Assembly (NCBI GenBank): GCA_949751835.1
Contig: CATKHK010000162.1
Location: forward strand, 1 to 38,690
DNA length: 38,690 bases
From: Blepharisma japonicum
Lineage: Eukaryota > Ciliophora > Heterotrichea > Heterotrichida > Blepharismidae
Direction: 5' to 3'
In this document: positions 282-38,690 of the stretch, piece by piece
How positions within the stretch are numbered: position 1 is the first letter of the stretch
Layout of the letters: each line of letters opens with the position of its first letter
The notes under the pieces: generated by a model
Told to the model about the DNA's origin: nothing
The model's database searches: none
Seen by the model: the letters and a program-made list of their open reading frames with translations, nothing else
Position numbers and translations under genes: made by a program

Positions 282-957
282 TTTGTTCATTTTAGGTTTC
301 TTCTAAATTGAAAATTATAATTTCACTATAGGTCTACTTCTATGAATAATTAAAGACTATATGACTTTAAAGCTTCTTTTATATTTCTTAAGCTCGTTTA
401 TAAATTTTAACTGTTTCCTTTTAAGTTAGCCTTGCAGGCATCTATTCACCATTTATTTAATACTTTCTATAATATTTTAAACCAAACTCTTTAGATGAGA
501 GTCCAAATTTTGGTTAAAAATCTGGATGGAGAAACTGCCGCTCTTGACGTTGAAGATATAGACACTCTTGAAAGTGTGAAACAAAGGATTGGTCGTAGCC
601 AGAAAGTCTCAACAAGTGAATTTATAATCCTTTTTAAAAACAATCCTTGCGACCTTAAAACTACTGTAAACTCAAATAGAATCGTAAATGGCAGCATTCT
701 TGTCATGAAAAGAATAGAAACAGAAGAAGAAAAAACGGGTTTTAGCTACAAAAAAACTTGGCCGAATGGAGTCCTTAATCCCTTAAAGAAGTTCAACAAA
801 GCCTCAGCTCCCAATGAAATTTGGGAAAGATTTAAAGTAGAATTGGAAAGAGCCGTCTTAGATAATCTCTCTATTAAGTGAAACTTAGACAAACTTTTCG
901 TTACTCAAATGGGGCTTGACAACGAAATGGATGCGCTTGAAGCAGATTGAAATATGG
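254..957 (+). repeat. Direct repeat copy 1: promoter plus ubiquitin-like exon
   Basis: This stretch matches 4961-5664 with only scattered substitutions. The match covers about 240 bases upstream of the start codon and the first 154 codons of the ubiquitin-like/LRR gene. It begins at the shared TTATGCC near 254 and stops right after the second in-frame UGA (948-950). The close match over the non-coding part suggests a recent segmental duplication or gene conversion that carried the promoter along. Confidence 0.85.
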
Positions 958-1154
958 AGAAGGAGAAAAATCTAAAAAGCCAAAAGCAAGAGAATTTGAC
1001 TCAGATGAAGAAGACTTCCCAATATCATCAGAAAAATCACCAAAAGAAAAAATTGAGAAAAAGCCATAATAAAAATCGCAAAAAATTAAGAAAATACCTA
1101 GTATTGATGAGAAAAATAAAAAATAGAGAAAAATTAAGCAAAGAAGACCTGTAA
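495..1154 (+). pseudogene. Ubiquitin-like family copy A, truncated and chimeric
   Basis: The frame opens with MRVQILVKNLDGE, a ubiquitin-like fold start. It passes UGA at 879-881 and 948-950 (Trp) and ends at TAA 1152-1154, giving 219 residues. The first 128 residues are about 83% identical to copy C by eye (22 differences). After 957 the sequence no longer resembles C. It instead matches the 3' end of degenerate copy B: an AAGCCAAAAGCAAGA block, a FDSD acidic patch in a shifted frame, and shared 3' flanking DNA to about 1330. The LRR and coiled-coil parts are absent. The tail frame in use is Lys-rich and looks out of phase; a neighbouring frame gives a more protein-like KKPKAREFDSDEEDF segment. 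It could be expressed as a short ubiquitin-like protein, but a broken chimera is more likely. Confidence 0.7.
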
Positions 1155-4960: not shown

Positions 4961-5664
4961 TGCCTAAAAATTTTTGTAAGCAAATAATTTGGTTTTTTTA
5001 GGTTTCTTAAAATTGAAAATTATAATTTCACTATAAGTCTACTCCAATGAATAATTAAATACTATACAATTTTAAAGCTTCTTTTTATATTTTTTAGGCT
5101 CGCTTATAAATTTTAACTGTTTCCTTTTAAATTAGCCTTGCAAGCATTTATTCACCATTTATTTCAAACCTTCTATAATTATTTTAAGCCAAGGAGTTTA
5201 GATGAGAGTCCAAATTTTGGTTAAAAACCTGGATGGAGAAACTGCCGCTCTTGACGTTGAAGATACAGACACTCTTGAAAGTGTAAAACAAAGGATTGGT
5301 CGTAGCCAGAAAGTCTCAACAAGTGAATTTACAATCCTTTTTAAAAACAATCCTTGCGACCTTACATCTACTGTAAACGGAAATAGAATCGTAAATGGCA
5401 GCACTCTCGTCATGAGAAGAGAAGAAACAGAAGAAGAAAAAAACGGTTTCAGCTACAAGAAAACTTGGCCAAATGGAATATTTGATGCCCTAAAGAAGTT
5501 CAACAAAACCTCAGCTCCCAATGAAATTTGGGAAAGAATTAAAATAGAGTTGGACAGAGGAGTCTATGAAAATCGCTCTTTTAAGTGAAACTTAGACAAA
5601 CTTTGCGTTACTCAAATGGGACTCATCAACGAAATGGATTGGCTTGAAGCACATTGAAATATGG
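4961..5664 (+). repeat. Direct repeat copy 2: promoter plus ubiquitin-like exon
   Basis: This is the partner of 254-957. The 240 bases before the ATG at 5202 (4961-5201) are nearly the same as those before copy A. They therefore probably contain the promoter and 5' UTR of the family. The match ends just after the second in-frame UGA (5655-5657). Confidence 0.85.
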
Positions 5665-7442
5665 AAAATCCTTATTTTGCTGAAGAGCAAAGAAAAACTA
5701 TAATCGACCTCATCAGATGGAATTATATCTATCTTTTCAAAGCCAACCAAACTGAAGAAGGCTTAGGTAAGCAGTATACCGATACAGTACTTTCAAGGAG
5801 CTATGAATTAGTTCTTAAAGATTATAGAGAGCCTAAAATCCTTTGTGTACTAGAAAGAAATGCATCATTAAAACTTTGTGAACAAGAAAATGATAATTTC
5901 GTCTTTGATACTCTATCGTTTAATAAAGTAGAAGAAGCTAGAAAAAGAGAGCTGGATGAGAATCAAAAGAAGCTCAGAGCTAAAAAACAAGCAAAAGATA
6001 TGACGGGTAGAGCTGAGCTAAATGAGAATATCCAGAGATGCAAAAATCAAGCACTCAACTTAAACAATGGTTATTTCAATTATATATTGGATTTTGGGAA
6101 TGGCTTAGGGGGGAGAACTAGCACTATTAAATCTTTGGAAATCAAAGGAGAGCTTGTTTTTAGGCCTTTTTTCACAAGGGTTCATAAGGATTACATCAAT
6201 AGTCTTGAGCAAGTAGATCTCTTTAAGTCCATACTTACTGCCTTTAATATGTGTTCAGGCATTGAATGCATAAAATTCAATTTATCATATACCACAGATC
6301 CTGAGCAGTATGAAAACATTCTAAAAATTTTACAAGAAATTCAAAAAAATGATAATTTGAAGTACAAATTAAAGTACCTTGACCTCTCAGGCTTTTATAT
6401 TACCTCAGAAATTATCACTGTAGTTCTACAACTTGTTACTGATTCCTCCCTTGAACACTTGGCATTAAACAACTGTAAAATAGTAGATCACGGGCTAGAT
6501 TTAATATCCAATGCACTTTCAAATAGCAGCATTGTGTCAATTGAGCTGAGAGGGAACGGTCTTGGTAATGAGAATGTAAAGATGCTGCTTAAAAAATTCG
6601 TGAACTGCAAGTTCTTGAAGAGGCTTGATATTTCGCATAACCCCATTGGAAATGAACTTGAAGAAGATATAAAAAATTTGATAAGAAAAACTGGAATTAC
6701 CTCACTTAATCTAAGTTATACAAATATTGTTAAGAGAGGACTTAATTCTATCCTAAACTTTGCAGCAACTTCGCAGCTAGAATACATCAACATTGACGGC
6801 AACAGCTTACAAGATGTTGGCCAGAATTACAGCACTTTTGGAAAAGTCATATGTTGTGATTTCTGGAGGTTTTGGCCAAAATGTGGCAATTCAGCATGCT
6901 GCATTGCAGTTTCTAACTGTTTCGCAATCAAAGCACACCAGAAAGTTCATGCCGACCCTGAACATACCGAGAAAGCTAAAAAAATCAATACAAAAGCAGA
7001 ATTAGTCCAGCTTAAAAAGCAGCTCGACAGGAATATTGAAGAGTTATTGGAAGAAAAGCAAAGGAGACTGAAGCAAAGTCTAACCCTCGGAGCACTCAGA
7101 GAAAAGGAAGATTATGAAGCAGAACAAAAACGTCTTAGAGAAGAAAAACAAGAGTTAGAAGAGTGGAAACAATTCGAACTCGATAAGGCTAAAAAAGGTG
7201 CGAGCAATATGGTATCAATGAATATTAACACGAGCAATTCTATTAACGACAATAAACTGATGGGGCAAAATAGCATACAAGATGTCGCGAACGCTGACAA
7301 AGAATCTGATAAACCAAAAGCACTTGAAGGTGTGCAAGAAGAAGAAGAAGAATATCAGAAAAAAACGAAGCCAAACCCATCTGACCCAGCTAATATAATT
7401 GAAAAGGCACAAGAATTCGCAAAGAATATGGAAATGGGATAA
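5202..7442 (+). CDS. Ubiquitin-like / leucine-rich-repeat / coiled-coil protein (copy C), 746 aa
   Basis: The intact family member starts at ATG 5202, which is conserved in copies A and D. It reads through UGA at 5586-5588 and 5655-5657 as Trp and ends at TAA 7440-7442. Residues 1-75 are ubiquitin-like (MRVQILVKNLDGE, DTLESVKQRI, ILFKN). There is no C-terminal Gly-Gly, so it is a fused domain rather than a conjugated modifier. A family-specific linker follows (YKKTWPNG, SAPNEIWERIKIELDR). Residues about 380-535 are ribonuclease-inhibitor-like LRRs (LKYLDLSGF, LEHLALNNC, IVSIELRGNGLG, FLKRLDISHNPIG, ITSLNLSYTNI, LEYINIDGNSL). Residues about 600-665 form a charged coiled coil, and the tail is acidic. 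No signal peptide or membrane segment is seen, so it is probably a cytosolic interaction or scaffold protein (inference). The stretch at 6815-6955 is Cys/Trp-rich and may reflect a local frame error. Confidence 0.85.
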
Positions 7443-13221: not shown

Positions 13222-13830
13222 ATATATATAAGAAATAATTCATAGCTCCTAGAAAGTTCTGCATCGGCATGCTTCCTACCTAAGCCTTCTTCAGTTAGGC
13301 CGCTTTTGAAAAGATGCAATAGCATTTAATGATGCCTACTATAATTTTTCTTTGCTCTTCCCCAAAATATGGATAATCCATGTTTCAATGTCTTCAAGTG
13401 CATCCATTTCATCATAAAACCCTATTCAGCAAGGCAAAGCTTGACTAAGTTCCATCTAATAGGTGATTGGCTCTGACTAAATTGCTAATTCTACACTAAT
13501 TCTCTCCTCCATATTTTATTGGGATCACAAGTTTTGTGGAACTGCTTTAAGGCACCGAGGATTCCTTTTGGCCACTTTTTTTATAGATGTAATCATTTTT
13601 CTTTTACTTTTTTTACTCTTCCCATGAGAAGAGCGCTGTTTACGACTCTATTTGAGCTTAGAGTAGAATTAAGGTTCAAAGGTTTTTTTTTAAAGGAGTG
13701 TAAATTCCCTTGTTGAGACATTCTGACTACGATTAATTCTTTGCTTCACAGTCTCAAGAGTATCTGCATCTTCACAGTCAACACAGGAAATTTATCCTTG
13801 GAGATTTTAAATCAAAATTTGGATTCTCAT
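13222..13830 (-). pseudogene. Ubiquitin-like/LRR family copy D, degenerate
   Basis: Read on the minus strand from CAT at 13828-13830, it starts MRIQIL and keeps a nearly full ubiquitin-like block (EDADTLETVKQRINRSQNVSTREFTLL), broken by TAA codons and a one-base deletion. Downstream it aligns with C's TGGCC-AA-GGAAT, CCTAAAG and CCCAATGAAAT words. It then aligns through the two UGA sites to the EEGLG and SYEL region, where homology stops near 13222. At the first UGA site it has TGG (complement of 13452-13454). The second site keeps TGA but lies after a one-base deletion. The LRR part is absent. Confidence 0.8.
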
Positions 13831-19605: not shown

Positions 19606-22600
19606 TTAGTTAAAGATTAAGAAGAAAGCAGTCAAAAGACTAAGATAAACTGCTGCATCATCTTTTGAACCTGTAGTTGTAATCGCGATACTCTTCAAAG
19701 TAGTGGTTGTTGTGCCACTGGTGCTAGCATCAATACAATAAGTATGAGTTGGATAGCTATTGCAAGCAGTGAAGTAGCAAGTGTAGTCTGTGGCTTGAGT
19801 AAGACCTGAAACTGTAAGAGATGCAGCTGTTGCCGCTGTAACATTGGCGCATGTTCCATATGCAGCCATAGATTCTGCATCTAATCCATCAACAACTTGC
19901 CAAGCATAAGTAACTTTAGTGGAAGTGGTATCAGTGCAAGAGACACAAGCAATACCTGTTTGAGATGAGGTTACGCTGAAAACTGCACTTGTGTCAGCTA
20001 CTGAAGTCTTAGATGGGTCAGTTGACCAGGTTGGGACTGTGCCAGTTGACACAGAAGCTGCAGTTCCATAAGCTGCTGGGGCAGATCCAACGATAGCAGT
20101 CAAATCAGTAGTGGCTCCAGTTTGATCAAGTTGGTTGAGAATATAAGAAGGTGAATAGCTTGGATTGCTTCTGTCATAAACCATTTGGTAGCTGAATCTT
20201 GAGTAGGTTGTTGTTGAGGTCTGAAGGAATCTTAATGATCCTGTAGATGTTGATGGGTTTGTTTTTCCTGTAGAAATAAGCCAGTCAGGGTTAACTCCCA
20301 TATTCTTTGCTAAGCCTCTTCTAATACTGTCGTCAAGACTTGCAGCAACATCTGTTGCGAAGGTAACTGAGGTGGAATAGACAGATTGAATGGCTGAGGT
20401 GGTAAAGTCGGTAGTTGCAGTAGGCTGAGTGCTGCTGATTTTATTGTCAGCATATGCATAGAAGCTATAGTGAGTTCCATCCATAAGCCAATCCAAAGTA
20501 ATGCTTACTTGTCCGTTCTTAGCTCTGTTTACGACTGCGTTAGTCCATAGAGTATCGCAGTGTTCCTGATGCATTCTCTTGAAGAAAGAAGTAATATCAG
20601 TGTCTTTAGTATAGTCAATGTGGGTCTCAGTAGCCTGATATTCAGCTGCTAGCTGTGCTGAAAGGCTTGTTAAATTAGAGGTAGGAGTTACGAGGCTTTG
20701 GGTTTGTGACTTAAGCTCAGAATAAGTAAGAGCTGGAGTCCCATAGCAAGTAAGTCCCCAATAAATGACTGCTTCTTGGCTGAATTTGGCTGTAATTGTT
20801 ACTGAAGTACCTGTAGGAGTGCCAGTGGACAAAGTCAAACTGGTTGATGATGTAGGGATAGTTGAAGTAACTGTTGGAGATTGAGAAGCAGGGGCGGCAA
20901 AAATAGCTGCATCGGTTCCACTTACAGTGAAAGACAGTTTAGGTGTCTGGGTTGTAGAATATGTTGAAGCTACAGTGAGTTCAAAGTAAAGAGTTTGGGT
21001 GTCTGGTGTGAATGTAAGAGTTGTAGGGTTGATGGTGATGCCAGTAGCAGTGGTACCGAATGATGGAGTAATAATGAGTTGAGCAGCTGGAGCGCTAGGA
21101 ATGGTCACTGAGATTGGAATGCTAGTGTAGCCTACATAAAGTGTTGGAAGAGTGTCAACAGTAGGTGTAATTGTTCCAGAGGTAGGAGTGCTGCAAACTT
21201 CGACCATAACGCTAAGAGGAGCACTGTAAATATTGTCAGCAACACCATCTTGACGAGTTTCTGCTGTAGTCCAGTCAATATAATAAATTCCAAGAGCGGT
21301 TCCAGTGGCAGCAGATACTCTGAACATGATTTCAGTTTCCAATTGGAATGCAGTGTATTTGTAAAAGGTTGAAGTGAATTTAATATTGTTGGCTGTATCT
21401 GGATAGTTAGTGTTTGTCTTTGGAGTCAGTACCAATTTTTGTGATTTCATGCCAAAGTTATTAGATCCAGAGACAACGCTGACTGAAATATCACCACTTT
21501 GTTGTCCAGGTAAGAGTTGGATGTGATTAGACTGGTCTGATCCACTGTAACCATTAGGATTAACTGATGTAGAAGTGCTTAGGGAGTATCCTAGATATCC
21601 AGAGTTAAGGACTCCATAAGTTCGCCCAGTAAGGACCTTGTTGGTAGAGTCTACAACGATTAAATCAAACCTGTTAGACCAGTAAGAGTATGAAGATCCA
21701 TAATTGGTTCCAGTAACGTCCCAACCTGCAGTTCTTGACAAGCCAAATTGTGGGTTATTGACGTTGGACAATGAAATTCTGATTCTGTCAGTTGTTTTGA
21801 CTGAAGGAGTTGATGAACTTGGGATACCAAAAGAGATAACGTTTCCACTTACACTGCAAGAGCTAGTGCTGACCCAACTGGTTCCAGTAGGAGATGTGGC
21901 TGATGTTTCGTCAAAGGTTGATGCACTGCAGGTGATTGAGCTGGTAGTGTATAATTTGACATTAAATTGCTGAGGGAAAATAATGTTGAAAGTATTGGCT
22001 GAGCTAAAGCTGGTAGTTGAACTTATGGCTGGGTAGAAATCGAAGTTATAGGTCGTTGAAGTGGTCAATGTGCGGTCAGTGGCTGAAATAGGCTTAAGGT
22101 TAATGTTGCTAACTGGAGAAGTAGGGGTTACTGAAACAGATGAATAGAATGAAGCCTTGAGTTTTTGGGTTGAATCGTAATGCCAAATATTGAAATTACC
22201 AGTTGCAGTAGGGCCTGGATTTCTTACACCGTTAACAGTGAGGGATACTGTAGCTCCTGCAGATTGAGCAGAAGATCCTGATACAACAAGGTACCAATGG
22301 TCGGCAGTGCAAGTAATGCCTGTGCCAAGTACTGATGAGCTGCAGCTGAGGTACCAGTTGTTTGGTAAACAGTCTGGGTAAGTGTTGTCAGCATCTCCAA
22401 TATAAGCGTCAAAGTCTCTTGGGAACTGAATGTAAATTAAATCTCCACTTGCAATTGCTGCTGCAGAACTGAAGCTAAAGGTGTAAGCAGCCTTTTCCCC
22501 TGCAGTTGTGATGTCCCTGGAAACGCTAAGAGTGATGGCTGTGCTAACAGCGGTTCCAACAGTGATTGCAGCTCCACCTGAAGCTACTGCTGAGTCATCA

Positions 22601-25600
22601 ACAATTTTAGTTGGTGTTGGTCCCCAATAGGCAGAAATTTGGAAGTTTCCTGAACTTCCTGCAGCTGAAAAAGTGATTGCACCATCCAAATAAACAATAA
22701 TAGATTTTAGAGAGTCGATATCAGCGGTTAAGGTAATTTTGATTGTAGATGATGAAGCTATTTCGCATGAGCTGTATACAAAATTGGTCCAACAGTAATT
22801 GTTAATGCTAGCTGTAGATGTGGAATAAGACCAAGAAAGGGAAGAAGGAGTTGAGATAATAATATAACCATTAGCAGGAACTTTTTTAGTTAAAGTAAAT
22901 GTGAGCAAGATATCTGCAAGCTGATTTGGAACGTTAGGATATGCGTTGATGGTCAAAGAAGAAGTGCCAGTTGTTACAGAAGAAGAAGAAGTAATGGATG
23001 TTTGATATGAGGCTTCGTTAGCAGTAGCCCAGGTCTCAATTGTGTTACCGGCACTTGTCAGTGTTGAAAGTGCATTGAAGCAGTCTTTATCAATACTAGA
23101 AGCTGCAGTATTGGTTGGAGGTGTAACTCCAGCTGCTACAGCTGTGTATGAGCCTGCCTTAAGATCAGCAGTCAGAGTGGCTGTTAATGTTGAGCCAGAG
23201 AGTGACCAAGTTGCTGCAATTGAAGATGATGAGTAGCTTGTTGATGCGGTTGGCCATGTCCATGAGCTATCCATAGTAAATACGATCGAGCCACCTTTAG
23301 GCACTGTAATAGTTGTGGTGAAGCCAAAAGTCATTGAAAGGTTAACAGAGTCTGCACTAGCTCCAATAATAGTACCAGAGCTGGATGTGCATGTAGGGGT
23401 AGTTAAAGCGGTTGAAACAACTGCAACAGTAGAAAGAGAAGAGCTAGAGTAAGCCTCAGAATAAGAGCAAACACCTCCCAATGCTGATGATGCCACCCAC
23501 ATGCCCCATGTGCTTCCTCCAGCTGCAAAAGAGTAGCTTGGCGGCTGAAGATTTGTAACTGCTAAGTTATATGCACTTGCAGTAGAAGCAGGGGTTGCAG
23601 CGCCCCATGTGCCATAGGCCATAATAAATCCACCAACTCCAGTATCACTTGAAGAACCCAGATAGAATGTTGTAGAAGCAGGGGAAGTTACAGCAGCAGC
23701 AGTATCAACAACAACAGAGTATGAAGGTGTTGATGAGAATATAAATCCTGATGGAAGGCCAATTCCAATGATATCATTATTGGCTATTGCAGTTACTACA
23801 GCATCGCTATCAAGTGTATTAGAAACAGTAACACCTGCTGAAGTTCCAATAGCCCATGAGGATGCAGAAGTTTTTGCAGCACCTGTTGAAGCAGCATCAA
23901 AATTGGTAACACTTGAGACTGTCCAAGCAAATGCATTTTGGTAGAGAACTTGTCTAACTGAAGTGTCTGATGACTTTGTAAAGTAAAAATAAGAATCAAT
24001 ATTTAAAGTAGATAGCCCTAAGGTAGCAATTGCACTTGGGAAATAACTATTTATCTTTGTTGACGCTGCTGTGGTAGTAGATCCGAGGCTTTTAAGAGTA
24101 ATTGTTAGCTTACTTGCTGAAACTGCAAAAGTAGCTGTTGCGGTAGAGGCAGAAGATAAAAAGCTGGTACCAAGAGTAAGAGTTCCAGCATTGCTAGTTG
24201 CCATAATGCCAGTACCCATGAATCCTGTTGTGGAACTATATCCTACATCAATTTCAATGTCAACTGCATATGATTGGGAGGAGAAGTCAAAGTCTGTGCT
24301 TATTGGCTCAAAGTGGTTGACTAATGGGATTCCGTTGAGGCTATCTGTGCAAAGAGGCATCGTATAGAATTTAGAACTAGACGAGGTTGTACCAGTTGTT
24401 TGAGGGAGTACTGAGATTACTGAACTGCCAATTTCAGTTGTGGATACTGTAGACAATGTATAGGATGCAATAGCCCAAATTTCGTAAAAGGTTCCTTTGT
24501 TGGATGCTATAAAAGGTAAGCTTGTTTTGGATGAATCAGCGTACCTTAAAAAGTAGTAGGATCCACTTGCAACACCATCAGTTGAAGTAGTGAATGACAA
24601 AGAAATTTGGTTGCTTGTTGAGAGTCCAGGAGTAATACCATTAGTAGTGGCTGTCATGGCGGCAGCTCCTGAGGAAAATGCAGAAGCAGCATTAATATAA
24701 TCATGTTTAGTAAGGCTGCTATCAAGATAAACAGAGCCAAAATTATTAAATTCAAATGAAGTTGCTCTGTTGAAATATAAAACGACATTTGCTGTGACTC
24801 CAGACGATCCACCCCAAGTGTTTGAACTTCCAGGAGTAATACGCATTATAATATCTTGGCCTTTGACACCTCCTTGGTTGTCCCCATTTGCATCACCTGA
24901 GTCACCTATGATATATGGAGCTGGAGCAGTTCCAGCGGCAATTTTTGGATAGCTTGTAGTACCGGCTCCAAGAGCATGCAAAGCGACATCAGGAATCAAA
25001 TAAGCAGCTGATGAGACTGCTTTAACTGTAAATGAGCCTGGATTGTTTGCACTTTGGTCTACAACATTTGAGCTGTAGTATGTGGTAATTTTAGTAACTT
25101 GTGGAGTTGTTCCTGATAAGTAGGTTAATAACACAAAAGATACTGATCCTTTAGCTTGTGCTTTACTAAATGTCACAGTTGCAGTTGTTGCATCTGTTGC
25201 TGCACAACTTGCTCCATCAATAGCTGGGGTAACATAGCATAATCCGCTACTTGATGCGTCAGTGGTAGTATCAAGATCTGACCACCAAATAGTATCATAA
25301 ACATTAACACCGCTGAAAGTAACAGTCAAGGTGCTTGAAGCAGGCAAAGGATTATTAGTGCCTACTGTAAGCTTTGTGAATATAACTTGATTTTGCATGA
25401 CTGTGTTTGAAGGGAAATTATAGCTTTGCCAGCTTGTAAAAGTAGCTGATCCTGCAGTAGATCCTGGACCAGCGCTTGTGGTATACTTAGCAAGCATGTT
25501 GTTGGTTCCGAATCTCCAAATATAAACACTCCAGTTGCTTGAGCTAGTAACCCATGCTGGTGAAGTAATATAGTTAACGTCTAGCTTAATGGTATATGAG

Positions 25601-26400
25601 TTTGAAGTAGATCCAGAAGATACATAAGCGTCTGAAGCAATTCCATAAATATAAATACTGTCTGAAGCAACAGTAGTGTCAGCTCCAGTTGCAACTCCTG
25701 CGGTAACAGAACTTTTAAGTCCAAGTGAGCAAGGTAAGTTACTGGTATTTGTGCTATCTGGGCCTAAGAGAGGGTTTGAGTCTCCTACTGATTTGCATGT
25801 TGGGCCTGTTTTTAGAACCCAGTTTGAATCTGGAACAATTTCAATCAAATCATGAGCCCAAAGACTGAAGGACAGTGTAAATTGGAATTCAAGGGTGTTG
25901 TCAGTATTGATTGTAGTGACAGTGCTGCCTGTAGTTCTAGATACAGTAAGAGAGCCTGATGATAAAGAGCTTGTAACTGCGACGCAACCGAAATTGTAGT
26001 TTGCATCGACAATTTGCCCAGATGAGCTGTATCTAGTGACTATTCCAAATGGACCATATGTGCCTGCGCTAGGAAGAGTTGTAGAATAAGTTACGCTAGT
26101 ATCTTGTCCAGACTGTAAACTAGCTGAACTTGAAGCAGTAACAGTTTTAGTTGATTCGGTAGACCAAGCTGAAGGGAAAATGATCTGGACTGTTGCTCCA
26201 GTCATAGTAGTAGTAGGCCTGAAGTGAACTGTCAAAGTGACTGTTGATCCAGTATTTGTTTGGGCAAGTTCTATAGGGTTATTAAACCAAGTTTCTTTAG
26301 GCCAAACAATTCTGCCAGGATCTAAGTTAGAATCATATGATCCAAATGTCAAACAAGAAGCAAGTCCAATAAGGGCGATAAAGCTTATGAGACTTTTCAT
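19606..26400 (-). CDS. Giant GPI-anchored-type Ser/Thr-rich surface protein, 2264 aa
   Basis: A single uninterrupted minus-strand frame runs from ATG 26400 to TAA 19606-19608. Residues 1-18 (MKSLISFIALIGLASCLT) are a signal peptide. The C-terminus (TTGSKDDAAVYLSLLTAFFLIFN) has small residues then a hydrophobic end with no charged tail, typical of GPI attachment, so the mature protein should sit on the cell or cilia surface. Between lie many Ser/Thr/Ala/Gly-rich modules of about 130-180 residues with a recurring pattern: an aliphatic strand ending in FP or TP, then W or F, then a Cys pair. Examples are VQIIFPSAW near 60, IYIQFPRDF near 1326 and FNIIFPQQF near 1473. They look like beta-sandwich adhesion modules. 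A late segment near 2150-2230 is FN3-like (LTVSGLTQATDYTCYF). The gene is richer in G+C and uses only TGG for Trp. Relatives lie broken at 35110-38300. The exact family is not recognised. Confidence 0.88.
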   Translation of the reverse strand: MKSLISFIALIGLASCLTFGSYDSNLDPGRIVWPKETWFNNPIELAQTNTGSTVTLTVHFRPTTTMTGATVQIIFPSAWSTESTKTVTASSSASLQSGQDTSVTYSTTLPSAGTYGPFGIVTRYSSSGQIVDANYNFGCVAVTSSLSSGSLTVSRTTGSTVTTINTDNTLEFQFTLSFSLWAHDLIEIVPDSNWVLKTGPTCKSVGDSNPLLGPDSTNTSNLPCSLGLKSSVTAGVATGADTTVASDSIYIYGIASDAYVSSGSTSNSYTIKLDVNYITSPAWVTSSSNWSVYIWRFGTNNMLAKYTTSAGPGSTAGSATFTSWQSYNFPSNTVMQNQVIFTKLTVGTNNPLPASSTLTVTFSGVNVYDTIWWSDLDTTTDASSSGLCYVTPAIDGASCAATDATTATVTFSKAQAKGSVSFVLLTYLSGTTPQVTKITTYYSSNVVDQSANNPGSFTVKAVSSAAYLIPDVALHALGAGTTSYPKIAAGTAPAPYIIGDSGDANGDNQGGVKGQDIIMRITPGSSNTWGGSSGVTANVVLYFNRATSFEFNNFGSVYLDSSLTKHDYINAASAFSSGAAAMTATTNGITPGLSTSNQISLSFTTSTDGVASGSYYFLRYADSSKTSLPFIASNKGTFYEIWAIASYTLSTVSTTEIGSSVISVLPQTTGTTSSSSKFYTMPLCTDSLNGIPLVNHFEPISTDFDFSSQSYAVDIEIDVGYSSTTGFMGTGIMATSNAGTLTLGTSFLSSASTATATFAVSASKLTITLKSLGSTTTAASTKINSYFPSAIATLGLSTLNIDSYFYFTKSSDTSVRQVLYQNAFAWTVSSVTNFDAASTGAAKTSASSWAIGTSAGVTVSNTLDSDAVVTAIANNDIIGIGLPSGFIFSSTPSYSVVVDTAAAVTSPASTTFYLGSSSDTGVGGFIMAYGTWGAATPASTASAYNLAVTNLQPPSYSFAAGGSTWGMWVASSALGGVCSYSEAYSSSSLSTVAVVSTALTTPTCTSSSGTIIGASADSVNLSMTFGFTTTITVPKGGSIVFTMDSSWTWPTASTSYSSSSIAATWSLSGSTLTATLTADLKAGSYTAVAAGVTPPTNTAASSIDKDCFNALSTLTSAGNTIETWATANEASYQTSITSSSSVTTGTSSLTINAYPNVPNQLADILLTFTLTKKVPANGYIIISTPSSLSWSYSTSTASINNYCWTNFVYSSCEIASSSTIKITLTADIDSLKSIIVYLDGAITFSAAGSSGNFQISAYWGPTPTKIVDDSAVASGGAAITVGTAVSTAITLSVSRDITTAGEKAAYTFSFSSAAAIASGDLIYIQFPRDFDAYIGDADNTYPDCLPNNWYLSCSSSVLGTGITCTADHWYLVVSGSSAQSAGATVSLTVNGVRNPGPTATGNFNIWHYDSTQKLKASFYSSVSVTPTSPVSNINLKPISATDRTLTTSTTYNFDFYPAISSTTSFSSANTFNIIFPQQFNVKLYTTSSITCSASTFDETSATSPTGTSWVSTSSCSVSGNVISFGIPSSSTPSVKTTDRIRISLSNVNNPQFGLSRTAGWDVTGTNYGSSYSYWSNRFDLIVVDSTNKVLTGRTYGVLNSGYLGYSLSTSTSVNPNGYSGSDQSNHIQLLPGQQSGDISVSVVSGSNNFGMKSQKLVLTPKTNTNYPDTANNIKFTSTFYKYTAFQLETEIMFRVSAATGTALGIYYIDWTTAETRQDGVADNIYSAPLSVMVEVCSTPTSGTITPTVDTLPTLYVGYTSIPISVTIPSAPAAQLIITPSFGTTATGITINPTTLTFTPDTQTLYFELTVASTYSTTQTPKLSFTVSGTDAAIFAAPASQSPTVTSTIPTSSTSLTLSTGTPTGTSVTITAKFSQEAVIYWGLTCYGTPALTYSELKSQTQSLVTPTSNLTSLSAQLAAEYQATETHIDYTKDTDITSFFKRMHQEHCDTLWTNAVVNRAKNGQVSITLDWLMDGTHYSFYAYADNKISSTQPTATTDFTTSAIQSVYSTSVTFATDVAASLDDSIRRGLAKNMGVNPDWLISTGKTNPSTSTGSLRFLQTSTTTYSRFSYQMVYDRSNPSYSPSYILNQLDQTGATTDLTAIVGSAPAAYGTAASVSTGTVPTWSTDPSKTSVADTSAVFSVTSSQTGIACVSCTDTTSTKVTYAWQVVDGLDAESMAAYGTCANVTAATAASLTVSGLTQATDYTCYFTACNSYPTHTYCIDASTSGTTTTTLKSIAITTTGSKDDAAVYLSLLTAFFLIFN

Positions 26401-34910: not shown

Positions 34911-35109
34911 AAGAGTGCCTTTTCTTTTAAAATAGCTTTTAAATTCTCAAAATAAGGCATTATATATGTTTAATCGATTGATTTTGGTCTTTGTTATCTA
35001 TAGCTGCATAAGATTTGACACGTTTCAATTTTTATATGAACTGAATGACATGTCTCAATTATATATAGCACAATTTATATTAAATAAGATATGAAATTGA
35101 TAAAAATTT

Positions 35110-37467
35110 TCTTGAAATAATCTTACTCATTTGCATTTGATTCTTTTAATTCCGTTTATCTTGACACTGGCGTAACAGTAAATGACTACATCAATATAGA
35201 TACTGATTTAAAGTCAACAGACGCAGCAACCCGAGCTCTAGATGCAGCAAGCCCTGCAACTACTCCGAGCACAACAACCTCGAATCAAATTTCGGTAAAT
35301 TTCGCTGCCTCAACTTCCTCACCAGCTGTTGCATCCGGATACTACTATGTTCTACGCTACTCGGGCGCAGGAAAAACAAGTTTGCCTTTTGTAGCATCCA
35401 ACTTAGGAACCTTTTATGAAATCTGGTCTATTGCAACTTATTCATCTACAACTGAAATTGGTAGCTCAGTGATTTCAGTGCTTCCTCAAGTAGTTACTGA
35501 TGAACTCTATACCAAATTAACTTGCAACGACAATCTTGATGGGATTCCACTTTTCAATTACTTCGAGCCAATAAATGTGGACTTTGACTTTAGTTCCCAA
35601 TCATACGCAATTGATATTGAAATTAACGTAGGATATGACACTAATAATGGATTTATGGGAACTGGAATTATGGCAACAAGCAATGCTGGAACGTTGACTC
35701 TTAATACTCACTTCTTATCCACTTCCTCTTCTGCGACTGCTACTTTCACAGTTGCTACTAATAAATTGACAATTACTCTTAAAAGTCTTGGATCTACCAT
35801 TGTGTCGACCCCAAAATATATGCTTCTATGATTGCTACCTTAGGAGAAACGTCTTTAGATGTTAAAACATATTTCTATTACACTAAATCAGATGCATCAG
35901 TTAAGCAAATGCTTTACCAATCTTCAGCTACCTTGACAGTTAAAGCAAGTCTAAGTTCTTTTGATTCTTCATCAATAGGAGCTGCACCAACCTCAGCCTC
36001 AACATGGTATATTGGAACTTATGCTGGGGTGACTGTATCTCAAAATTTTATTAAAGAGGTTGGAACAACAACCCTAGCAACTGACATAGTTAATGAAGAT
36101 ATAATTGGAATTGGCCTTCCAAAAGGATTCGGTTTTTCATCAGCTCCTTCATACACCGTACAAATTGGCTCAGCTGCTTCCGGAACAGCATCTCCTAGCA
36201 CTACACTATATTACCTTGGCTCTTCAAGCGACACAGGGGTAGGCGGATTCGTCATGGCTAGTGGCACCAGCACAACCACTTGGGGTGCAAAAACAGGTGA
36301 CGCATCATCCACTACGGTCTATAACCTCGCAGTAAGTAATCTTATGCCTCCAAACTATGTGATTGCGGCTGGAGAAAGTACATGGAGCGTATGGGTTGCA
36401 CCAAAAGGATGGGGAAGCGATTGTTCATATTCTGTAGCTTATTCTAGTAGCATAGAATCAATATTTACCCAAGCGCTGGCATAGGATCTGGAAATACGAT
36501 TATTGTTTATTTGGATGGCGCAATAACTTTCGCAGCTGAAGGAAGTTCAGGAAATTTCTTGATTTCTGCCTTTGGGGATCAGGACCAACTAAAATTGCTG
36601 ATGACTCAGCAGCCACCTTAGGCGGAGCTGCAATCACTGTTGGAGCCGCTGTAAGTACAGCAATCACTCTTAGTGTTGCAAGAGATATCACAACTGCAGG
36701 AGAAAAGACTGCTTACACATTTACCTTCAGTTCTGGTGCAGCAATTACAAGAGGAGATTTAATTTTCATTCAGTTCCCAAGAGATTTCGACTCCTATATT
36801 GGAGATGCTGACAATACCTACCCTGACTGTTTGCCAAATAACTGGTATCTCACTTGCAGCTCATCAGCACTTGGATCTGGCATTGCTTGCAATGCAGATC
36901 ATTGGTATCTGATTGTATCAGGATCTTCTGCACAATCTATTGGAGCAATTGTATCCCTCACTGTTAACGGTGTAATAAATCCTGGCCCTACTGCAACTGG
37001 ATATTTCAATATTTGGCATTATGATTCAGAATAAAAACTCAAGGCTTCACTTTATTCTTCTGTTTCAGTAACCTCTACTTTGCCAGTTAGCAACATAAAT
37101 CTTAAGCCTCTTTCAGCAGCTGACCGCACATTGACTACTTCAACAACTTACAACTTCGAATTCTATCCAGCCATAAGCTCAACCACCAGCTTCAGCTCTG
37201 CCAATACTTTCAAAATTGTGTTCCCTCAGCAATTTAATGTCAAATTATATACTACTAGCTCAATCACTTGTAGTGCATTAACCTATGATGAAACATCAGC
37301 CACAGCTCCTACTGGAAACAGTTGGGTTAGCACTAGCTCTTGCAGTGTTAGTGGAAACGTTGTCTCTTTTGGCATCCCAAGTGCATCAACTCCTTCTGTC
37401 AAAACAACTGACAGAATCCGCATTTCATTGACCAACGTTAACAACCCACAGTTTGGCTTAACAAGAA
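35110..37467 (+). pseudogene. Surface-protein pseudogene fragment, plus strand
   Basis: This fragment is homologous to residues about 546-1553 of the intact 2264-residue protein, in order (SSQSYA-DIEI-VGY, GTGIMATSNAGTLTL, YLGSSSDTGVGGF, PNNWYL-CSSS, NIWHYDS, TDRIRISL-NVNNPQFGL). It is broken by a frameshift near 35800-35830, a deletion of about 245 residues at 36480, a one-base deletion near 36571, and a TAA at 37032-37034 where the intact gene has Gln. There is no start codon or signal peptide. Divergence from the intact gene is substantial, so the parent was another family member. The G+C-rich, Ser/Thr-rich character is retained, suggesting fairly recent loss. It ends abruptly at the junction with the inverted fragment. 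Confidence 0.85.
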
Positions 37468-38300
37468 CCACACGATCAGAGGCTGCTGCCGATTCTAAAT
37501 CTATCGCAGATTTGATATAGCAATTTGCTGTAACTCCATCGCCAATATAAACAGAGTTAAGAATATCAAATGAAACTGAAAATACTTTGTTGAAATAAAA
37601 AAGCTAAGTTTGCTTCAACACCTGCTCCCCTTCATGTATTTGAGCTACCTGGAGTAACACGGATAAAGATATCTTGACCTCTTTTTCCTGCTTGGTTCTG
37701 ATTAGTTGCTGAAGTTAGATAATATGGATCAGGAGCAGTCCCAACATTAAGCTGAGGATATTGTGTGGTCTCAGAAGCAAGAGCATGCAAAAAAGATCAG
37801 GAATCATATACAGAGAAGATGAAGTAGCCTAAATTGTAATGAAGCCTGGATTGTTTGCACTTTGATCTAACTACAGAGACTGATGGATCATAATAAGTAG
37901 TAATTTTAGTAACTTTTGGTGATGATCCATAGAAATAGCTTAATACCACAAATGAGACTGATCCTTTAGCTTGGGCTTTCATGAATGTTACAGCTGCAGT
38001 AGCCGTGCTAGATGCCATACAGCTTGCACTACTAATAGCTGGAGTTACATAGCATAGTCCTCTAGCTTTCCCAGATTCATTATCAGTATCTGATCACCAA
38101 ATCGTGTTGTATATATCTACAGAACTGAAATTAACGACCAAAATGCTACCTACGGGTAGAGGATTGTTTATTTCTACTGTAACCTTTGTAAATAAGACCT
38201 GGCCTACTACAATAGAATTTGAAGGATAATTTTGACTTTGCCAGCTTGTAAAAGTAGTTAATCCTGCTGTAGATCCTGGGCCAAAGCTTGTTGGGTATAT
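37468..38300 (-). pseudogene. Surface-protein pseudogene fragment, inverted
   Basis: On the minus strand this matches residues about 305-585 of the intact protein (GPGSTAG-TFTSWQS-N-PSN, NPLP, VTFMKAQAKGSVSFV). It has stops and frame changes. The residues around 37470-37560 (SVYIGDGVTAN) overlap the start of the plus-strand fragment (SVYLDTGVTVN). The two fragments resemble each other more than the intact gene there. They therefore come from the same or sister copies, rearranged tail to tail. Homology ends near 38300. Confidence 0.8.
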
Positions 38301-38385
38301 CAATATGAAATTTTTTTGCAGGTATATAATAATTAAGAAGGGAGCAGTAAAAAGTCAAACCCTTATAAATTGCACTTTTTTAAAA

Positions 38386-38690
38386 ATGAAGAGACGAAAA
38401 CATTTTACTGGCGATTCACTAGGCCCAAATGCCGACCAAGTATTGGGAATTGATAGTGAAGGCTTGCTATTTTGTTCTTCAATTTCGACTGATACTTTAC
38501 CTACAATTGTGGAGTCAACGATAATGGAAAGTTCTGATTTTGAAGGCTCTATTCCACCTTTTATTGATGGAGACAGAGCTTCAAATGAAGAGCTTTTCAA
38601 ATTACTTTTAAGGTTCCATCATGATGATTTTCTACTTGAAGAGATTGATTTGTTACTTGACAATAGTGACTTAGAAATTTTTACTGATGA
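38386..38690 (+). CDS. Open frame leaving the window, N-terminal 101 codons
   Basis: ATG 38386 starts a frame that stays open to the right edge. It begins MKRRKHFTGDSLGPNADQVLG, with a short basic start, then a Ser/Thr/acidic stretch (SISTDTLPTIVESTIMESSD) and an acidic Leu-rich end (NEELFKLLLRF, LLEEIDLLLDNSDLEIF). It has no signal peptide and uses no UGA. Codon use and G+C look like a real gene. The antisense frame is a shadow. The family cannot be judged from this part; an acidic, low-complexity N-terminal region is common in nuclear proteins and in some transposases. Confidence 0.5.
   Translation, partial: MKRRKHFTGDSLGPNADQVLGIDSEGLLFCSSISTDTLPTIVESTIMESSDFEGSIPPFIDGDRASNEELFKLLLRFHHDDFLLEEIDLLLDNSDLEIFTD

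Follow-up and report, generated by a model that had tools for sequence, protein, structure and literature searches.

The window analysed here, 38,690 bases in length, is one whole contig of a genome of 45.19 Mb in 224 contigs. The window is AT-rich, has few long open frames, and contains several diverged local duplications and other repeat pairs; no telomere repeat was found between positions 1 and 38690. The gene under study, gene C, and its local copies are arranged as follows.

5202..7442, plus strand: gene C, with ATG at 5202 and TAA at 7440-7442; 746 residues when TGA is read as Trp
5586..5588, plus strand: first in-frame TGA of gene C, read as Trp129
5655..5657, plus strand: second in-frame TGA of gene C, read as Trp152
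Gene C, residues 5-72: ubiquitin-like domain
Gene C, residues about 390-540: leucine-rich repeats, C-terminal of the ubiquitin-like domain
495..1154, plus strand: copy A, with ATG at 495 and an open frame of 219 residues
2640..2946 (aligned extent), plus strand: copy B, a diverged and weak match with an in-frame TAG at 2896
13229..13830, minus strand: copy D, 75% identical, decayed, with in-frame TAA/TAG and indels

The frame of gene C is open far beyond chance. Over 747 codons it contains two TGA, no TAG, and TAA only at its end, and seven TGG codons accompany the two TGA. When the bases of the gene were shuffled 2,000 times, TGA occurred 14.3 times on average (minimum 4) and TAA and TAG together 43 times (minimum 25); the remaining five frames of the gene hold 22 to 84 stops each. 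Both TGA codons were found where the original prediction had placed them, in the reading frame that begins with the ATG at 5202, and the standard code gave the same split of the gene into pieces of 128 and 593 residues. Outside its own contig, gene C had seven protein matches (60 of 120 candidates scored), none of which covers either TGA site. Because no matched relative elsewhere spans these codons, the genetic code and the local copies are the basis for assigning Trp precisely at 5586 and 5655.

Copy A is 90% identical to gene C over the first 467 bases and diverges thereafter. It carries TGA at 879-881 and 948-950, the same codons as in gene C, and the part common to the two copies is under mild constraint only (dN/dS of 0.56 over 155 codons). 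Copy B, which apparently has decayed, has TGA at the first site (2758-2760) and TGG at the second (2827-2829). In copy D the codon of the first site (complement of 13452-13454) is TGG, and TGA is retained at the second (complement of 13385-13387), the latter a codon that the original prediction did not mention. The predicted states of copy A at both sites, and of copies B and D at the first site, were all recovered. The TGG at the second site of copy B is present as well, but it had been placed at 2839-2841, where the bases are AGA; this 12-base slip leaves the observation intact. The two TGA/TGG exchanges had further been taken to show that UGA is a tryptophan codon. The exchanges are real, but alone they are weak evidence, because both occur in decayed-looking copies and a one-step change between TGA and TGG in a dead copy can be neutral.

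A second gene family, unrelated to that of gene C, is also present in the contig.

19606..26400, minus strand: large gene of 2264 residues, with 38 TGG and no TGA, ending in TAA
37557..38663, minus strand: paralogous open frame of 368 residues, with six TGA and four TGG, ending in TAA

The 2264-residue protein, for which no Pfam match was found, looks secreted when its sequence is judged by eye. The 368-residue paralog is 52% identical to residues 300-546 of this protein. Two of the paralog's TGA codons (complements of 38094-38096 and 37632-37634) stand opposite Trp residues of the large protein that are encoded by TGG, and a third aligned TGA (complement of 37797-37799) stands opposite Ala. 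Two more related pieces lie on the plus strand between about 35,100 and 37,500; one has TGG at five of five Trp codons, plus one TAA, and the other has TGG at five of six, with TTG at the sixth. Two weaker, overlapping alignments to the family contain several stops and keep no Trp. Rearranged relatives of the large gene lie on both strands of the region from about 35100 to 38663.

Conserved gene families were then compared across the genome. The protein kinase search gave 1,185 candidate matches, 134 of which were scored, and the best 30 of the 134 were read and aligned. Inside the 134 scored matches there were 101 TGA, eight TAG and three TAA codons, and 74 of the matches held at least one TGA. 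In the best 30 domains, the column that we take to be the Trp of the DxW motif was encoded by TGG in 23 cases and by TGA in seven, with no other residue. The corresponding column of what is presumably the HPW motif had 20 TGG and three TGA, together with four Phe, one Tyr and two gaps. Eleven of the 16 TGA codons in these 30 domains fell into the three Trp-dominated columns among 296, whereas 20,000 random placings of 16 codons put 0.15 there on average and never more than three. The remaining five lay in variable columns or in an insertion. Both TAG codons in the best 30 domains (two of the eight TAG, the ones that were inspected) lay inside stretches exactly 15 bases long that begin with GT and end with AG; we read these as introns.

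TGA was present in 28 of the 67 kinase matches in the better-scoring half and in 46 of the 67 in the worse half, a comparison that says nothing on TGA use because it is confounded by the lowering of match scores by TGA itself. The 33 tubulin matches contained 28 TGA, in 19 of them, and neither TAA nor TAG. The eight best-scoring tubulin matches were free of TGA, which was found in 19 of the 25 others. Highly expressed genes may avoid UGA, but the ranking of the tubulin matches is confounded in the same way as that of the kinases, and the pattern may come from nothing more than the lowering of scores by TGA.

The search for the release factor eRF1 returned four matches, namely three eRF1 genes (L005, L006 and L007) and a fourth (L004) that we take to be a pelota-like protein. 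The domain matches of two of the eRF1 genes are as follows.

Contig C29 of the genome (G000:C29:400682-401053): L006
Contig C9 of the genome (G000:C9:327595-327966): L007

L005 is free of TGA, and its codon 13 is TGG. Both L006 and L007 have TGA at the codon aligned with this TGG, and L007 has a second TGA at another Trp. When L007 was aligned with the solved eRF1 structure 1dt9, presumably the human protein, both of its TGA codons stood opposite Trp; the TGA of L006 is at the first of these two positions. L006 and L007 are 73% identical to each other, and either is 61-67% identical to L005. The motifs KSSNIKS and YICDNKF are present in L005. In L006 and L007 the NIKS motif is replaced by SATSIKS, and L006 also has YICNNVF.

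In the gene families examined, TGA is found mainly at conserved Trp positions, and TAA and TAG are rare inside coding frames. The kinase DxW column, the eRF1 genes, the stop-codon counts of kinases and tubulins and the second family of the window all bear out the original prediction that UGA is a tryptophan codon. Because this genome-wide evidence is independent of the gene C copies, we consider the assignment settled. We regard it as nearly certain that the window is a nuclear contig of a heterotrich of the Blepharisma kind, in which UGA encodes Trp and UAA and UAG are stops, and that gene C is one uninterrupted gene with Trp129 and Trp152. In this nuclear genome, UGA would be read as tryptophan, with UAA and UAG kept as stops, and gene C would be translated through both of its TGA codons. 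For annotation, the consequence is that the standard code would split, or call pseudogenes, gene C and the 74 of 134 scored kinase matches that contain TGA.

This reading is correct and already published for Blepharisma. UGA is translated as Trp in B. stoltei, whose introns are mostly 15/16 bp long and whose telomeres consist of CCCTAACA (according to the relevant parts of PMC9942806), and, at low usage, in B. japonicum (as stated in the passages of PMC4967479 on this species). Ciliates of the Blepharisma kind are known to read UGA as Trp in their nuclear code, and since the organism is one of them, the apparent stops of gene C are ordinary Trp codons. We found no difference from the Blepharisma code as described for B. 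stoltei, B. japonicum and B. americanum (UGA as Trp, UAA and UAG as stops). Blepharisma and this genome share UGA at conserved Trp positions, TAA or TAG at the gene ends that were read, 15-base introns, CCCTAACA arrays, and an eRF1 with KSSNIKS and YICDNKF (L005). A table in PMC4695839 gives the two eRF1 motifs for three Blepharisma species, and 15-base introns are described for heterotrichs in the pertinent text of PMC11441545. The assembly searched here is 45.2 Mb in 224 contigs, compared with a published 41 Mb for B. stoltei. The literature is not unanimous: a proposal cited in PMC6879139 assigns the standard code to B. japonicum, and PMC4695839, in the places that deal with Blepharisma, gives UGA as Trp in one and as Cys in another.

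A pattern of three CCCTAACA units, searched for in the whole genome with the reversed pattern as control, gave 168 overlapping matches and the control none. Among the matches listed, arrays lie at most 8 bases from the start of contigs C36, C47, C69, C78, C80 and C89, one on C7 ends 7 bases before the contig end, and one on C11 runs from base 334. Two DNA queries of the genome gave no match to tRNA-Trp, and ARAGORN called none among 57 tRNAs in 101 loci, which represent 51 of the 63 scored tRNA matches (of 2,483 candidates). The Blepharisma nuclear code is associated with a tRNA-Trp(CCA) that has a 4-bp anticodon stem, with no nuclear tRNA-Trp(UCA), and by analogy with this published work we infer that UGA would be decoded in the same way here.

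One other explanation is a context-dependent code like that of Condylostoma or Loxodes, in which UGA would terminate translation close to the ends of genes and encode Trp within them. Such codes have been published for related ciliates (in the parts of PMC4967479 and PMC11441545 that treat them). Condylostoma magnum and Parduczia resemble this genome in using UGA for Trp, and also for Sec in thioredoxin reductase, but in both UAA and UAG also encode Gln and all three codons can act as stops by context (UGA as Trp, stop and Sec is described for both in the corresponding section of PMC4967479); here, in contrast, TAA and TAG are rare inside coding frames. We nevertheless consider a context-dependent code very unlikely. 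The four genes whose C-termini could be assessed, by comparison with solved relatives or among themselves, end in TAA (L005, L006 and L007) or TAG (thioredoxin reductase), and the authors of PMC4967479 state in their account of B. japonicum that they removed its predicted UGA stops, none of which appeared genuine. With four gene ends assessed, an occasional UGA stop is still conceivable.

A second explanation is that UGA specifies selenocysteine or cysteine at the gene C sites, and the genome does contain a tRNA-Sec and a thioredoxin reductase with TGA at the Sec position.

G000:C60:226544-226629 (L078:1501-1586), minus strand: tRNA-Sec with anticodon UCA, 75.6 bits compared with a gathering score of 47
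G000:C4:745634-747091, minus strand: thioredoxin reductase (L079), which scores 657 bits with the TGR selenoprotein model (cut-off 476)

The thioredoxin reductase ends in Gly-Cys-TGA-Gly-TAG, so that TGA is its penultimate sense codon. Its alignment with 1h6v, a solved thioredoxin reductase that we take to be the rat enzyme, extends to the last residue, and the TGA stands opposite a residue written Cys in that structure. In mammals and other eukaryotes, thioredoxin reductase has Sec as its penultimate residue, according to the passage on this enzyme in PMC4967479. No SECIS element was matched in the reductase locus by Rfam up to E = 1; a candidate SECIS hairpin behind the gene, picked by eye from the SECIS motif, folds only slightly better than shuffles (z = -1.18) and is supported neither by Rfam nor by folding. 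With both a tRNA-Sec(UCA) and a TGA at the Sec position of thioredoxin reductase, UGA most likely also encodes Sec, in at least one gene, and would thus have two meanings, Trp and Sec, in this genome. For the two codons of gene C, we give this explanation almost no credence: in eRF1 and at the two kinase motifs, DxW and HPW, it is Trp and not Cys that UGA replaces, and where the gene C paralogs differ at these codons, the other codon is TGG. The thioredoxin reductase alignment described in PMC4967479 includes MMETSP1395, which is listed as B. japonicum in PMC6859813.

A standard code, with gene C turned into a pseudogene by two nonsense TGA mutations, is scarcely credible either: copy D has decayed, copy B apparently so, and the match of copy A to gene C stops after 467 bases, but gene C itself has no internal TAA or TAG in 746 codons, against about 43 in shuffles, and TGA also occurs within other, conserved genes of this genome (kinases, tubulins and eRF1). 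The Mycoplasma/Spiroplasma code (table 4) makes the same assignment of UGA to Trp but is bacterial, whereas a ciliate nucleus is at hand here; a bacterial (Mycoplasma) reading was rejected in view of the 45.2-Mb genome, its introns and telomere arrays, and its many kinases and tubulins.

Beyond the assignment of UGA to Trp in gene C, a side result of wider interest is that UGA seemingly has both the Trp and the Sec meaning in one genome whose eRF1 paralogs themselves contain UGA. Among the papers listed by our literature search, none contained both Blepharisma and SIKS. Because both SIKS-type paralogs depend on UGA being translated as Trp at their own codon 14, it is conceivable, though doubtful, that they form a feedback loop that would sense how well UGA is decoded, with UGA meaning Trp as a rule and Sec in thioredoxin reductase.
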